44,860 bases of DNA from assembly GCA_012523075.1 (NCBI GenBank), contig JAAYJF010000103.1, positions 1-44,860 on the forward strand, read 5' to 3'. Both the position numbers and the translations under genes were made by a program. How positions within the stretch are numbered: the stretch's first letter is position 1; every line of letters starts with the position of its first letter. The DNA comes from Clostridiales bacterium (lineage in GTDB: Bacteria > Bacillota > Clostridia > Ch29). Below the pieces are notes generated by a model. It ran no database searches, was not told the origin of the DNA, and saw only the letters and a list, made by a program, of their open reading frames with translations. This document shows, piece by piece, positions 20,343 to 39,544 of this stretch.

Positions 20343-20580
20343 CTATATATAGAGTGACAAAAACTTTACATCTTGCAGCGTGTCATCCTGAGCGAAGCAA
20401 AGGATCTTGCGAAGCAAAGGGTCCTATCTATCTCTAAAAGATTCTTTACTGCGTTCTTAAGCGACAGAGCCGGATTCTTCGGGCTCCGCCCTCAGAACGA
20501 CAAAGTCGGATTCTTCGGATTTCGCTTCTTCACAATGACAAGTAAAGCAATGCAATATCATTAACACTTTGTATATAGAT
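20343..20580 (+). repeat. MITE-like repeat, copy B (full length)
   Basis: The left end CTATATATAGAGTGACAAAA and right end TAACACTTTGTATATAG are inverted relatives of each other. The core contains TCATCCTGAGCGAAGCAAAG and, in the right half, several GGATTCTTCGG-type segments. It separates livJ from livH in an otherwise compact operon. Confidence 0.75.
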
Positions 20581-30740: not shown

Positions 30741-30962
30741 CCATATACAGCGCATTAATAGTATTATACTCCTTTACCTGTCGTTCTACAGAAGTGAAGC
30801 TGCCAGTCATTTAAGAGGGCGAGCCCGAAGAATCCGACACGCCTTTATGTCGTTCTGAACGTAGTGAAGAATCCTTCGAAGGCAGGCATAAGATCCTTCG
30901 CTTCGCTCAGGATGACAGAAGCGCTCAGCATGACAGGCTTAGGGATGTAAATGTTATATACG
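30741..30962 (-). repeat. MITE-like repeat, copy D (inverted), abutting the gatC ribosome site
   Basis: The left end CCATATACAGCGCATTAATA matches the right terminus of copy F in reverse. The other end, GGGATGTAAATGTTATATAC, is a shortened form of the left terminus and runs straight into GGAGGTGAC, the gatC ribosome site. The core contains both TTCGCTTCGCTCAGGATGAC and TCGTTCTGAACGTAGTGAAG. Confidence 0.7.
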
Positions 30963-34235: not shown

Positions 34236-34970
34236 TTAGTAGATCCACCTTTTTCTTATATTATGGGTACTAATTAAGAAAAGCCCCAGGCTGTAGCCCA
34301 AAAGCACTAAAAGGCTAACCCACATCTGAATGGAGCCATTGTAATTGATCGAGGATTTAAGAATGTCAGCACCGTAGGTTAGTGGCAGCATATAGGATAG
34401 TGGCCTCACAATAACTGGGAGGTCCTCTATCGGGATAAAAAGGCCACAAAGAAACATCATGGGGAAGCGGAAAAAATTGGAGAACGTTTGCGCTTCAAAG
34501 ACTTCGCTCACTGAGACTGCAATAAACAGCCCAAGAAAAGTAGACGTAACGGCGATGAAAACGACACCTATTATGGCAGAAATCCAGTTGACACCGGAAA
34601 GGTTAGCCAAGAATGAAGCGAAAACTACTGGAATGAAAGCGTTGATAATACCGAACACTATTGCACCAGTGGTTTTGGCCAACATCAGAAGGTTTAGGCT
34701 AATTGGTGCAAGCAGTAGCCTCTCAAAGGATCGGCTCTTTCTTTCAAAGGTTATCGTTACTGCAAGCATCGAAGTGGTTCCAAACAGGACGGATAAGGCC
34801 ATAACCCCTGGTAGGATGCCCCTGATATCAACGTCACTGGATGACCTAATGAAAAACATAAGCGTCCAGGATACGGGGAAGATTATGCCCCAGCTTATAT
34901 TTGGCGGTTTAAGGTAGTAGTTCTTCATGTCCTTCATCAAAATGCTAAAGAAAGCCAAAAGTTTTTTCAT
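34236..34970 (-). CDS. ABC-2 type transporter permease
   Basis: This 244-residue membrane protein has six hydrophobic segments. The N-terminus is KKLLAFFSILMKDMKNYYLK, then SWGIIFPVSWTLMFF. The conserved TFERKSRSFERLLLAPISL loop and MFLCGLFIPIEDLP region are typical of ABC-2 (DrrB/YhgE-like) permeases. Its start overlaps the ATPase stop as ATGA. Together they form an exporter, often for drugs, lipids or peptides; the substrate cannot be read. Base composition here is visibly more AT-rich than in the gat or pur genes. Confidence 0.88.
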   Translation of the reverse strand: MKKLLAFFSILMKDMKNYYLKPPNISWGIIFPVSWTLMFFIRSSSDVDIRGILPGVMALSVLFGTTSMLAVTITFERKSRSFERLLLAPISLNLLMLAKTTGAIVFGIINAFIPVVFASFLANLSGVNWISAIIGVVFIAVTSTFLGLFIAVSVSEVFEAQTFSNFFRFPMMFLCGLFIPIEDLPVIVRPLSYMLPLTYGADILKSSINYNGSIQMWVSLLVLLGYSLGLFLISTHNIRKRWIY

Positions 34971-35932
34971 TTTTTCTTCCCCTCCTTTTCCTTCCTTAGC
35001 TTGTCAATTCCGATTCCTGTGATTTTGACGAAGATGTCTTCCAGGGAAGGGCGTATGACTTTGGCTTCGCTTACTTTGATGCCATTGTCATCGAAAAACC
35101 TCATGAACGGCATCAGCTCAATCTCTGCTGCAGAGCTAATTCTGATACTATGGTCAGTCATGTTTTTAATAGTTATGCCGGAAAAGTTGCTTAATAGGAG
35201 TTTTTCCAAGCTAGAACCGCTTTTATCCATGGCAAATTCAACGGTGTTTTCCTGTTGCGCTTCAACCATTAAATCGTTGACTTTACTTACCTTGACAACC
35301 CTGCCTTCAACAATGAAGCCTATTCGATGGCAAAGCCTTTCGGCGTCTTCTATGTAATGGGTGGTTAAGAAAATGGTTGTACCCTTTTCGTTAAGTTCTT
35401 TTATCATCTTTCTGATTTGCCTTGCGCTTTCTACGTCGATACCGGTGGTTGGTTCATCTAAGAATAATATCTCCGGCTCATGAATGATACCGGCAGCGAT
35501 GGTAAGTTTTCTTTTCATACCCTTTGAATAGGCCCTGAAAGGCCGGTTTCCCGCACTATCAAGAGTGAACTGTTTTAATAGTTCTTTGGCTCTTTTTTCT
35601 CGAACTGTTTTTTCAATACCGTAAAGGGAAGCACAAAAAACGAGATTCTCGAATCCGCTCATGTCATCATAAAGATTGCTCTCATCGGGTACTATACCGA
35701 TGATCTGCTGAACCTTTTTAATATCCTTGATACCGTCCTGTCCTGCAATGGTAATCTTGCCGGATGTAGGATTGGCTAATCCAGTAAGCATGTTGATGGT
35801 TGTGGTTTTACCCGCACCGTTAGGGCCCAAAAAGCCAAAAACCTCACCCTTCTCCACGGAAAAGCCGATTTTTTTTACGGCTTTGAAGTTGCCAAAATTT
35901 TTGCTAAGGTTTTTTACTTCAATGATGTTCAA
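34967..35932 (-). CDS. ABC-2 type transporter ATP-binding protein
   Basis: This 321-residue ATPase of the DrrA/CcmA type has Walker A GPNGAGKTT, the Q-loop region IGIVPDESNLYDDMSG, signature RAYSKGMKRKLTIAAGI, Walker B ILFLDEPTTGID and switch His TTHYIEDAERLC. About 90 residues follow the nucleotide domain (AEIELMPFMRFFDDNGI, SLEDIFVKITG), the usual C-terminal extension. TTG 35932 is the likely start, with AGGAGG eight bases upstream. The pair is transcribed from the side where repeat copy E lies. Confidence 0.92.
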   Translation of the reverse strand: MNIIEVKNLSKNFGNFKAVKKIGFSVEKGEVFGFLGPNGAGKTTTINMLTGLANPTSGKITIAGQDGIKDIKKVQQIIGIVPDESNLYDDMSGFENLVFCASLYGIEKTVREKRAKELLKQFTLDSAGNRPFRAYSKGMKRKLTIAAGIIHEPEILFLDEPTTGIDVESARQIRKMIKELNEKGTTIFLTTHYIEDAERLCHRIGFIVEGRVVKVSKVNDLMVEAQQENTVEFAMDKSGSSLEKLLLSNFSGITIKNMTDHSIRISSAAEIELMPFMRFFDDNGIKVSEAKVIRPSLEDIFVKITGIGIDKLRKEKEGKKK

Positions 35933-35951: not shown

Positions 35952-36205
35952 AGCTTAACATGAGCAAGCTATATACAACGCACTAATAGCATTACATTCC
36001 CTTATATGTCATTCCGGAGAAGCTAAGCCCCAAGAAGCCGACTCCGTCGTTTAAGAGGACGTTCTTATATGTCATTCTGAGGGCGAAGCCCGAAGAATCC
36101 GACACGCCTTTATGTCGTTCTGAACGTAGTGAAGAATCTTCCTAGAGGCAGACATAAGATCCTTCGCTGCGCTCAGGATGACAATCGCTTTGCTCATGTT
36201 AAGCT
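35952..36205 (-). repeat. MITE-like repeat, copy E, flanked by a 16-bp perfect inverted repeat
   Basis: The element proper starts at 35969 (CTATATACAACGCACTAATA) and contains two GTCATTC-type cores, TCGTTCTGAACGTAGTGAAG and CTTCGCTGCGCTCAGGATGA; its distal terminus is missing. It is bracketed by AGCTTAACATGAGCAA (35952-35967) and its exact reverse complement (36190-36205), which no other copy has. Confidence 0.7.
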
Positions 36206-36211
36206 AAAATC

Positions 36212-36343
36212 TTACTTGTTCTCTTCTTCCTTACAATCGCAAGGATGGTCTTTCTCATCACAGTGGCAATGCTTAATTTGCTCTTCGCTGCACTTTCCTT
36301 CCTCTGGCTTTAGCTCTGGGTGTTCACATTTTGATTTACACAT
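36212..36343 (-). CDS. 43-residue Cys/His-rich putative metal-binding peptide
   Basis: The ATG (36341-36343) immediately follows the stop codon of the ArsR-type gene (36344-36346), so the two are one operon with coupled translation. The product has seven Cys (residues 2, 6, 18, 26, 28, 35, 37) and four His (8, 25, 27, 33) in 43 residues, with the dense segments MCKSKCEHPE and KHCHCDEKDHPCDCKEEE. Lys and Glu make up most of the rest, and it has few hydrophobic residues. This composition and its position resemble SmtB/SmtA-like regulator-metallothionein pairs, but the sequence does not match SmtA that I can recall. Buffering or sequestering a soft metal (Zn, Cd, Cu, As) is a reasonable inference. 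Confidence 0.7.
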   Translation of the reverse strand: MCKSKCEHPELKPEEGKCSEEQIKHCHCDEKDHPCDCKEEENK

Positions 36344-36688
36344 TTATTCTTCCCCCTTTCCACAGCATGAATGATTTTTTGAAATATATTTATGGCAATC
36401 TGAATTAATCTGAACCGTCTCGGATAACTCAACAATCTCTTTTGCTGCATCCTTTAATAAATTCCGATCCACGTAATAATGCGTAAAGTAGCCTCGTTTG
36501 TCTCCTTTAACTAACCCAGCGGTTCGCAGGATTTTTAAATGTTGAGAGACTGCAGATTCAGATATGTTAAGTCTTTTTGCCAATGCGCCCACACAATAAT
36601 CATGGCTTAAAAGTAGCTTTATCAAGTTGTATCGAGTTTCATCGGATAGAGATTTTAATATTTCAATTAATTCAGGTATGGCTATCAC
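36344..36688 (-). CDS. ArsR/SmtB-family metal-responsive repressor
   Basis: This 114-residue winged-helix repressor has ILKSLSDETRYNLIKLLL, the sensing-helix Cys in HDYCVGALAKRLN, the recognition helix ISESAVSQHLKILRTAGLV and the wing KGDKRGYFTHYYVD. The C-terminus is unusual: CHKYISKNHSCCGKGEE adds three Cys and two His beyond the alpha-5 helix, suggesting an extra metal site. The GTG start at 36686-36688 has only a partial ribosome site (GCGAG), so the N-terminus may be slightly off. The product probably represses its own operon through the palindrome at 36723-36743 and is released by metal. Confidence 0.88.
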   Translation of the reverse strand: MIAIPELIEILKSLSDETRYNLIKLLLSHDYCVGALAKRLNISESAVSQHLKILRTAGLVKGDKRGYFTHYYVDRNLLKDAAKEIVELSETVQINSDCHKYISKNHSCCGKGEE

Positions 36689-36720
36689 CTCGCATTTTAA
36701 TTAAGTAAATCCTAAAATAA

Positions 36721-36749
36721 ATAATATATCACTAAAATATATTTGTCAA
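36721..36749 (-). promoter_or_regulatory. Promoter and operator of the arsR - Cys-rich peptide operon
   Basis: On the minus strand TTGACA (36744-36749) and TATTAT (36721-36726) are 17 bases apart. The spacer contains a 7-7-7 inverted repeat, AATATAT-N7-ATATATT at 36723-36743 on the plus strand, which covers the whole gap between -35 and -10. That is the expected place for an ArsR/SmtB repressor to block RNA polymerase. Confidence 0.7.
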
Positions 36750-36823: not shown

Positions 36824-36960
36824 CGGGTGGGAATTCGATTTATATGTAAATATGGTAGTAGCTTTGATCGCAATACGGTGTGTCACCATTCCTTTTTTCA
36901 CACAACTGTCTTACGGGCATATATTGGTATTATATTATTCGTAAGGAGGTCAGCATTTTA

Positions 36961-38343
36961 ATGGTTGAACTTACTTTGCTACACTGGATATATACCATAA
37001 TGGTTATTGTGATATTGGCAGTCATGATAGCCCGCAGGGATACCATAATACCTTGTATAGCGGGTATTTTTTTGATTGGACTTGCCGCAAAGGGTTCGGT
37101 GATCGACGGTACCCGCGCCATATTCGATTCCCTTGTTGTTGCAGGCTTTGAATTATTCTCGGTAATACTGGTAATATCCCTCATTGTGGCGATGTCCAAA
37201 TTAATGGAGGACATAGGGGCCAATGTCCTTATGGTGAGACCCTTTGCGCGGTTTATAAAAACTCCTGATATCGCTTTTTGGTTTATTGGAATAGTCATGC
37301 TGGTGGTATCGTGGTTCTTCTGGCCCTCCCCCGCCACCGTCCTTGTGGGAGCGGTGCTGCTGCCGGTGGGCCTTAAGGTAGGGCTTCCAGCCATTGGGGT
37401 TGCGATGGCGATAAACCTGTTCGGCCACGGGATCGGGCTGTCGAGCGACTATATTATCCAGGGCGCGCCCACCATAACTGCCACCGCCGCCGGGGTTGAG
37501 GTAGTGGACGTAATGGTCAAGGGTATCCCCTTGGTGGCCGTAATGGGCATCACCACTGTGGTGGCGGCATATATATTTCTTAAAAGGGATATGAGGCTTG
37601 GCAGGATTGAGAATACATTAGTTCAAGAATATGAAAAGAAAAAGCACATAAAGCCTACCGGGATAAGCAGATTTACCGCTGTTTTGGTACCTGTTGCCTT
37701 CGCCCTTGATGTGGTGGCCATGTTTGTCTTCGATTTAACGGGCGGCGATGCCACAGCCCTTGTGGGAGGCACTGCACTGATACTAATGGCACTAATAAGC
37801 GTTCTGGCCTATAAGGGCAAAGCCCTGGACCGGGCAGCGACGTTTATGAGGGAAGGCTTCAAGTTTGGAATGGAAATATTCGGACCGGTTATCCCGATAG
37901 CTGCCTTCTTTTACCTGGGCGAGATAGCCCCTATACAATCAGTGTTGGGCGAGGCTGTGATGCCGGTGGGTTCGGAAGGGATACTTTCGGATATGGGCCG
38001 TGCCCTTGCGGCTGCGGTCCCGATGAACAGGCCCATGGTTGCAACGATGGAAACAATAGTGGGTGCTATAACGGGCCTGGACGGCTCGGGCTTTTCCGGG
38101 ATGTCGCTGGCAGGGTCGCTGGCACGGGTCTTTGGCACCGCCGTTGACGGCTGCATAGCAACACTGGGTGCCCTCGGGCAGATCGGTGCTATATGGGTGG
38201 GCGGTGGAACCCTGATACCCTGGGCGTTACTGCCTGCTGCAGCCATATGCAGGGTCCTGCCCATTGACCTGGCAAGGCGGAACTTCAAACCTGTTATGAT
38301 TGGTTTTATAGTGACTACCATTATAGCTATGTTTCTTATTTAG
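36961..38343 (+). CDS. Polytopic membrane transporter, family uncertain
   Basis: This 460-residue protein has about 11-12 hydrophobic segments (YTIMVIVILAVMIARR, FELFSVILVISLIVAMS, FWFIGIVMLVVSWFFW and others). Repeated re-entrant-like motifs (WPSPATVLVGAVLLPVGL, DGSGFSGMSLAGSLARVFG) recall the ion transporter superfamily, which carries organic anions or cations. No ATPase or binding protein is adjacent, so it is probably a secondary carrier. ATG 36961 follows AAGGAGGT by ten bases. It is convergent with the small Cys protein, overlapping it by 8 bp. I cannot name the substrate. Confidence 0.75.
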   Translation: MVELTLLHWIYTIMVIVILAVMIARRDTIIPCIAGIFLIGLAAKGSVIDGTRAIFDSLVVAGFELFSVILVISLIVAMSKLMEDIGANVLMVRPFARFIKTPDIAFWFIGIVMLVVSWFFWPSPATVLVGAVLLPVGLKVGLPAIGVAMAINLFGHGIGLSSDYIIQGAPTITATAAGVEVVDVMVKGIPLVAVMGITTVVAAYIFLKRDMRLGRIENTLVQEYEKKKHIKPTGISRFTAVLVPVAFALDVVAMFVFDLTGGDATALVGGTALILMALISVLAYKGKALDRAATFMREGFKFGMEIFGPVIPIAAFFYLGEIAPIQSVLGEAVMPVGSEGILSDMGRALAAAVPMNRPMVATMETIVGAITGLDGSGFSGMSLAGSLARVFGTAVDGCIATLGALGQIGAIWVGGGTLIPWALLPAAAICRVLPIDLARRNFKPVMIGFIVTTIIAMFLI

Positions 38344-38722: not shown

Positions 38723-38912
38723 CTATATATAACGTGATAAAGACTTTACATCTCCTAGCGTGTCATCCTGAGCGTAGCGAAGGATCTTATGTCTGCCTCC
38801 AATAAAGATTCTTCAGGCTTCGCCTTCAGAACGACATAGTCGGATTCTTCGGGCTTCGCTTCTTCGGAATGACAGATAAAGGGATGTGATACTATTAGCA
38901 CGTTATATATGG
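38723..38912 (+). repeat. MITE-like repeat, copy F (best-preserved ends)
   Basis: Left end CTATATATAACGTGATAAAG and the reverse complement of the right end, CCATATATAACGTGCTAATA, match at 23 of 32 positions when extended to 32 bases. The core holds TGTCATCCTGAGCGTAGCGA near the left and TTCGGGCTTCGCTTCTTCGG near the right. Length is about 190 bp. Confidence 0.8.
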
Positions 38913-38950: not shown

Positions 38951-39544
38951 ATGTTATTTCCCGATTACAGCCAGACTGGACTAGTTTATCACGTGATTTC
39001 CCTTAACGACCTTGCAAAGGTTAAGACCCACGGCATAAGCTACGATGATAAGGCAACCTACCAGGAAAAATACAAGGACTATCATGTTTTTGTGAACCGG
39101 TACAGGCCTAAAAAAATACCCGATTGGGTGGATAGGACAAGGGCCGTATTTGCCAGCATGAACTTCAGGGAGGACCACGCATTTCATTCCCACAGCATGC
39201 TGCTGGCGTTTAGTATTGACCCCTCAAGGTGCTGGGTTGCCAATGAAAATCGGGCCAACCAGCTTTACGAGCCTTTTATACTGCACAGCGTTGAGGGCTT
39301 TTACGATGCAAGGGATTATCTTGAAGGACCGGGCAGGGATTTAATAAAAGAGTACTGGGATACATCCCTTTCCTTTACCGATAATCTGAGTATAAGAAGG
39401 GACAGGACAAAGGGGTACGACGCAGAGGTCCTGGTGTTCCACGACATAAAGCCGGAGGATATTCAGTACATCGCGATAGTGTCCGACCACAGGATTATGA
39501 CGGTGGATACGTGGAGGAAAACTTTTTGCAGCGGTAAGGAATAG
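38951..39544 (+). CDS. Possible ADP-ribosyltransferase-fold protein (DarT-like pattern)
   Basis: This 197-residue protein begins with LVYHVISLNDLAKVKTHGIS, like the start of DarT/DUF4433 proteins (YHIT..NL..IL..GL). It ends with GYDAEVLVFHDIKPEDIQYI, like the DarT AEFLV segment, where the Glu is catalytic; by analogy His14 and Glu159 would be the NAD and catalytic residues. The middle (AVFASMNF, CWVANENRANQLYEPF) is not familiar from DarT. No DarG macrodomain antitoxin is adjacent, so a toxin role is doubtful; it could be a housekeeping relative. ATG 38951 follows AAAGGAGGTGTGAC. The next gene begins 53 bp downstream. Fold assignment is inference from pattern only. Confidence 0.5.
   Translation: MLFPDYSQTGLVYHVISLNDLAKVKTHGISYDDKATYQEKYKDYHVFVNRYRPKKIPDWVDRTRAVFASMNFREDHAFHSHSMLLAFSIDPSRCWVANENRANQLYEPFILHSVEGFYDARDYLEGPGRDLIKEYWDTSLSFTDNLSIRRDRTKGYDAEVLVFHDIKPEDIQYIAIVSDHRIMTVDTWRKTFCSGKE

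Follow-up and report, generated by a model that had tools for sequence, protein, structure and literature searches.

What function can be served by a 43-residue peptide, rich in cysteine and histidine, that is encoded directly behind the gene of an ArsR-type repressor? This question is raised by a locus in a 44,860-nucleotide stretch of DNA from a Clostridiales bacterium (contig JAAYJF010000103.1), further called the window. An initial annotation, made from the letters of the DNA, had read the pair as a metal-sensing and metal-buffering unit, possibly with a metallothionein of a new family. In this work, we examine the gene organization of this locus, the conservation and genomic neighbourhood of the peptide in relatives, and the signals that control its synthesis.

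Gene organization of the cassette

The cassette consists of four minus-strand genes in a row: arsR, the 43-codon ORF, a gene for a DrrA-like ABC ATPase and a gene for an ABC-2 permease. The first (36344..36679, with the ORF extending to 36688) encodes an ArsR/SmtB-family repressor, whose ArsR domain scores above curated cut-offs (NF033788, 77.3 bits against 55; PF01022, 53 against 22). The peptide, MCKSKCEHPELKPEEGKCSEEQIKHCHCDEKDHPCDCKEEENK, is encoded at 36212..36343, and its putative ligands C6, C18, C26, H27, H33 and C35 are assigned from conservation in relatives. Its ribosome site, AAAGGGGGA (36351..36359), is located within the arsR 3' end. Compared with DrrA/DrrB-type ABC-2 exporters, the ATPase (34967..35932) is just over the TIGR01188 cut-off (312.8 bits against 312.45), and the permease (34236..34970), matched by PF01061 and PF12698, falls far under that of drrB (64.7 against 223.05 bits).

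At the junction, which reads GAA TAA ATG TGT, the arsR stop codon (36346-36344) abuts the peptide ATG (36343-36341), so that the window holds an in-frame arrangement of the two coding regions interrupted by a stop codon. The ORFs and the junction are thus as the initial annotation had described them; the seven Cys (2, 6, 18, 26, 28, 35 and 37) and four His (8, 25, 27 and 33) of the peptide and the unusual Cys-rich tail of the regulator, DCHKYISKNHSCC, are present as well, and every number given there holds. It overlooked, however, the ABC exporter encoded in this operon, the fusions that keep a ribosome site inside the frame, and the occurrence of the module in several phyla, all described below.

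The window ArsR carries a Cys in helix 3 (DYCVGAL) besides its Cys/His-rich tail, and the helix 3 Cys (DLCVGAL) is invariant across 17 rows of fused relatives. The model of one of these, L121, comes closest in the PDB to structures of the ArsR family, CzrA, SmtB and CadC among them. Translation of arsR in the window likely begins at ATA (AUA, 36679-36677), because the GTG at 36688 falls within the arsR Shine-Dalgarno sequence GAGGTG, relatives have ATG (L024, L025, L030) or TTG (L021) at the same place, and L023, which shares ATA with the window and L022, has no upstream ATG, GTG or TTG ahead of an in-frame stop.

Promoter and predicted operator

The promoter (36721..36749, minus strand) is composed of TTGACA (36749-36744), a 17-bp spacer and TATTAT (36726-36721). 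In an alignment of 17 upstream regions (A2), TTGACA is followed by a spacer half-site, TATTTAAGT, which in the window is TATTTTAGTG at 36739-36730, and by TTAAGTA-N2-TACTTAA right after the -10 box. We regard this last dyad, which adjoins the -10 box on its 3' side and overlaps the transcription start region, as the conserved predicted operator. In the window it takes the form TTTAGGATTTACTTAA (36716-36701), the core of an imperfect 12-2-12 inverted repeat, TTTATTTTAGGA-TT-TACTTAATTAAA (36696..36721), in which 9 of 12 positions pair. Such a repeat taken alone occurs in 8.6% of shuffles and is not significant, so the operator prediction rests on conservation. When 81 upstream regions were scored for the dyad, most surpassed their shuffles, with a Fisher value that is inflated, as the template was taken from the same relatives that were scored. 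Many ArsR genes devoid of the peptide are among them, and for this reason the dyad is assigned to the ArsR subfamily.

A different element, a palindrome at 36743-36723, had been proposed as the operator. It is present and fills the promoter spacer, though it also runs into the -10 box; the operator role was rejected, since an exact palindrome with 7-bp arms (gap 0-9) appears in 9.9% of shuffles of the 110-bp upstream region and this one is not conserved in relatives.

Conservation of the peptide

An ArsR-based genome scan, from which 80 of 237 loci were kept, revealed many loci with the same peptide directly 3' of arsR. The shared pattern, C-x(11-12)-C-x7-CH-x5-H-x-C, further called the CHG module, was collected from 68 distinct loci of Bacillota, Desulfobacterota, Atribacterota and other hosts. 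This number leaves out L103 and L148, whose modules are partial, and L145, whose contig is as long as that of L027; L170 and L172, drawn from the same genomes as L058 and L045, were dropped, and L119, a locus with masked bases sharing a genome with L021, may be an assembly copy. In an alignment of 46 rows C6, C18 and C26 are invariant, while P9, E21, I23, H27, H33 and C35 are kept in at least 90%. The peptide of a genome from the same taxonomic family as the window (G004) is 63% identical.

Profile searches indicated a patchy occurrence. Among 391 genomes from the class to which the window belongs, a profile of 17 rows (A1) found the module convincingly in 3; of its five matches there, one (L103) is part of a module located at the N-terminus of an ArsR, and another (L104) seems to be a chance match. 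Judged by the same profile, sequence matches among relatives at E values of 0.01-1 are mostly chance too. A1 was positive in 22 of 297 genomes from the phylum of a Desulfobacterales MAG (G403) and in 7 of 50 from that of an Atribacteria MAG (G401), and profile A3 in 25 of 97 from the class of a Syntrophomonadaceae MAG (G398), these three groups including the seed genomes.

The window and L021 peptides differ by 21 synonymous changes over 18.2 sites and by 18 non-synonymous changes over 101.8 sites. Further distant pairs show the same pattern; the very close L138/L139 and L140/L142 hold too few changes. These counts show strong purifying selection on the peptide frame, and with a Cys/His frame shared by orthologues the frame is conserved in relatives, a point on which the initial annotation had made its proposal depend.

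No Pfam or NCBIfam model matched any of 17 members at E values up to 10, and a PDB sequence search with profile A1 was equally without a match. Searched by tblastn, the window peptide matched nothing among plasmids and phages, nor did a relative's module among plasmids. A literature search among open-licence papers brought up no description of the peptide or of a nested arsR-peptide gene. By these comparisons, the CHG module is a peptide family that recurs across anaerobes and is absent from the profile libraries tried, which agrees with the earlier suggestion of an ArsR-family sensor coupled to a Cys/His peptide of an undescribed family.

The search motif proposed for this family, C-x3-C...HCHC...C-x-C, was retained in part: C6, C26, H27 and C35 are kept, but C28 and C37 are not conserved in the 46 rows, and 'HCHC...C-x-C' was rejected as a family motif. 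The suggested metallothionein membership did not stand. SmtA-type metallothioneins are defined by many conserved cysteines, which build a multi-metal cluster. The CHG peptide differs from SmtA and NmtA in that only four Cys and two His are conserved, with no family-model match and no conservation of a multi-Cys cluster; membership was rejected, and because the conserved residues fit about one metal site, a metallothionein cluster is unlikely. AlphaFold modelled the peptide alone with a mean pLDDT of 62.7 and a single helix at 20-27; low confidence of this kind is expected of a small domain that folds only with metal, but is no proof of it.

Neighbours of the module

Neighbours were counted by hand over the 68 loci (70 rows minus the repeats L170 and L172). 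ArsR shares an ORF with the module in 30 loci, where L122 is scored as fused on the strength of L143, the other half of its contig, and is an adjoining separate gene in 22, which together makes 52. PadR adjoins the module in four loci, and 12 have no recognised regulator beside it, among them the contig ends L141, L184 and L190. Twenty of the loci (the window and 19 others) were found through ArsR itself. The remaining 48 came from module searches, so that the linkage was not forced by the query, and 36 of these are regulator-linked (32 with ArsR, four with PadR).

A gene for an ABC-2 ATPase or permease follows downstream, on the same strand, in 41 of the 68 loci. Instead of it, four loci (L077, L132, L146, L166) carry an ArsP_1-like permease, with the ArsP_1 match under cut-off, three (L155, L157, L168) a chromate transporter and two (L088, L154) TauE/SafE. 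As the partners vary (TauE, ChrA, ArsP_1-like, FmdE and FmdB-like proteins), no single substrate is implied, and these swaps argue for the module being a general accessory rather than one tied to a single substrate. In L023 and L024 a degraded module is continuous with the N-terminus of the ABC ATPase, and the close operon relatives L022, L025 and L031 lack the peptide, from which it follows that the exporter can manage without it.

Several other arrangements were noticed. In L155, L159 and L160 a PadR protein with its own N-terminal Cys/His motif directly precedes the module, and chromate or MOT1-type transporter genes are close by in L155 and L160. In L163 and L185 the module lies behind a gene for a P-loop ATPase-like protein; nearby genes of L163 look like FecCD-type and substrate-binding ones, perhaps a metal-uptake setting. 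Mailhella MAGs (L052, L059, L060) have a reduced module, e.g. CPEDIRRACHG, at the ArsR C-terminus. A different Cys-rich peptide (SCGCGC or similar) is encoded 3' of arsR in several loci of Desulfobacterota, Nitrospinota and Nitrospirae (L093-L100), seemingly a second, unrelated ArsR companion.

A predicted nested start in fused relatives

In the 30 loci in which the arsR frame continues into the module, a Shine-Dalgarno sequence and a start are nearly always kept at the module's first residue, which is a Met start (GTG in L183). Each internal site was scored against the anti-Shine-Dalgarno sequence and ranked among all other tested codons of the same ORF. It ranked first in 12 of 18 fusions of the discovery set, with six in which it did not (L050 has no site at all), and in 12 of 12 held-out fusions, which were fetched after the idea arose yet are kin of the first set (L170 and L172 dropped). 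Fisher p values of the rank test are 7e-13 (discovery) and 1e-12 (held-out), and as the loci share descent they overstate the evidence. Synonymous recoding of the seven upstream codons seldom scores as well (combined p 3e-5 and 4e-6). AGGAGG was found in codon phases 0, 1 and 2 and encodes, according to phase, RR, KE or EE, or GG; since the residues differ, it is the RNA that is kept and not the amino acids. With a loose pattern, a ribosome site was recognised ahead of the module in 57 of the 58 rows linked to a regulator (two of them repeats), the exception being L050. In loci where arsR and the module lie in different frames, the stop codon of the one often overlaps the start codon of the other, as ATGA or as TAA within ATGTGTAA.

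In the fused relatives two products, the sensor with its module and the peptide by itself, are thus probably made from one gene, and the window form, with its stop at the junction, should yield separate proteins only. A role for the long product as well is modestly supported: in 10 fusions that are related to each other (of 13 chosen ORFs), 61 amino-acid changes accumulated in the linkers and no stops, against 3.7 expected (p 0.024). An ArsR tree of 52 rows, in which L180 and L183 are unplaced and L029 is labelled 'nomodule' though its contig ends 5 bases after arsR, shows seven changes of the fused label, at least five of them forced by well-supported branches. This suggests that the regulator-module frame switched repeatedly among separate, overlapping and continuous states while the ribosome site stayed.

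Surroundings and possible acquisition of the cassette

The cassette has 41.3% GC, compared with 50.4% for the remaining window. In G005, from the same family, gatB and a GntP-like gene are about 106 bp apart and the cassette is missing between them, and in G001, from the same genus, gatB is followed by the counterpart of the ORF at 38951, again with no cassette; a search for a close ArsR in G001, G003 and G005 found none. The earlier remark that the segment may be acquired is supported by its GC content and by the cassette-free G005. For the long membrane protein encoded at 36880-38343, which we regard as GntP-like, no Pfam family matched at E values up to 1, and the ORF at 38951-39544 shows a weak resemblance to DarT (PF14487, E 0.009, below cut-off). 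An interspersed repeat, CCTGAGCGnAGCGAAGGATC, lies at 36156-36177, 38767-38788, 30890-30911 and 20387-20408, one copy being placed between the peptide gene and the ATPase gene; its pattern has 101 matches genome-wide (49 forward, 52 reverse), and the reversed control pattern has 0.

Discussion

The reading we prefer, and to which we give about an even chance, is that of an autoregulated detoxification or homeostasis operon with an ArsR repressor, the CHG-module peptide and an ABC-2 exporter, in which the peptide would carry or buffer metal at a single site. The Cys sites of ArsR would be filled by a soft metal ion or metalloid (of the Zn, Cd or As(III) class), and the loaded repressor would leave TTAAGTA-N2-TACTTAA. 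The peptide, made in step with ArsR through translational coupling, would bind the same ion via C6/C18/C26/H27/H33/C35 and act between sensor and exporter. One gene with a retained internal start would, in about half of the relatives, give a sensor with a carrier domain together with the free carrier. We give similar, about even odds to a broader proposal, in which the CHG module would form a new family of metal carriers, encoded within the 3' end of the gene for the sensor itself and with two starts in about half of the loci examined; sensing and buffering would then share one ligand site, with their dose tied by translation.

The main rival to a carrier or buffer is a co-sensor role. The module would be the sensing part of the regulator, which when fused sets the metal threshold and when free acts in trans on ArsR or PadR as a co-sensor, competitor or anti-repressor. 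The 36 of 48 module-search loci next to or inside an ArsR or PadR gene speak for it, as does the fact that regulators vary less than exporters. It is weakened, however, by modules found with no regulator alongside (L150, L158, L161, L162, L163, L185), by those of L023 and L024, joined to the ATPase instead, and by the L121 fused model, where the ArsR domain is confident (pLDDT 86-98 in blocks of ten, through residue 90) but the linker has a mean pLDDT near 40 and the module, whose placement is unsure, is not confidently packed on ArsR. We therefore hold this role to be rather unlikely.

Somewhat less probable still is a structural zinc knuckle, with Zn required only for folding and the peptide acting as an adaptor that links the exporter or the regulator to other proteins. 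The conserved non-ligand residues P9, E21 and I23 suggest an interaction face and the helix predicted at 20-27 would suit it, but there is no match to a zinc-finger family or a PDB sequence, and no partner protein is common to all loci. Slightly further down we place a thiol or reactive-sulfur system, whose Cys would detect or buffer not metal but persulfide, sulfite or the redox state: conserved His beside Cys fits metal binding better and most partners are ABC-2 exporters, against which stand the TauE/SafE partners in L088 and L154, weak BigR and TsoR profile matches, far under cut-off, and the many hosts which, judged by name, belong to sulfate-reducing groups. A by-product of the arsR 3' end, either untranslated or in decay, is very improbable as an account of the peptide: its absence from the close operons L022, L025 and L031 might suggest it, but the selection on its frame and on the ribosome site already contradicts it.

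Several known systems come close to this locus. In E. coli, the copper chaperone product of copA is named CopA(Z). Frameshifting on this one gene is reported to yield a copper transporter and a copper chaperone (PMC9548414, citing Meydan 2017, Drees 2017). The case resembles the fused loci, by our inference, in that a single gene supplies a small, free metal-binding protein besides a larger one that handles metal; it differs in that frameshifting shortens a pump to a chaperone, whereas in fused arsR the C-terminal domain of a sensor would be made by internal initiation. A comparable second-product signal inside the frame is seen in the fused relatives as an internal Shine-Dalgarno sequence with ATG or GTG, while the window has a stop.

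An ArsR-family repressor is combined with a metallothionein in SmtB/SmtA of Synechococcus and AzuR/NmtA of Anabaena (PMC8790569). Both have in common with the window the pairing of an ArsR/SmtB repressor with a small Cys-rich protein and a 12-2-12 type operator near the transcription start. Their metallothionein gene is divergent (smt) or remote (nmtA), in contrast to the CHG-module gene, which is co-directional, overlapping or in frame, and accompanied by an ABC-2 exporter. Internal starts and small overlapping ORFs are reported to have been found by ribosome profiling (PMC9094748, PMC11955535); those products are likewise nested in other genes and apparently not tied to metal sensors or the CHG module.

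At the fused loci gene callers may annotate the long ArsR ORF only and miss the peptide. If the proposed reading is true, metal biology would gain a peptide family that is widespread in anaerobes and missing from the profile libraries tried, and a further route, besides separate genes and frameshifting, to a free metal carrier alongside the protein it serves. The separate, overlapping and nested forms would then be natural replicates in which the dose balance of sensor and buffer could be studied.
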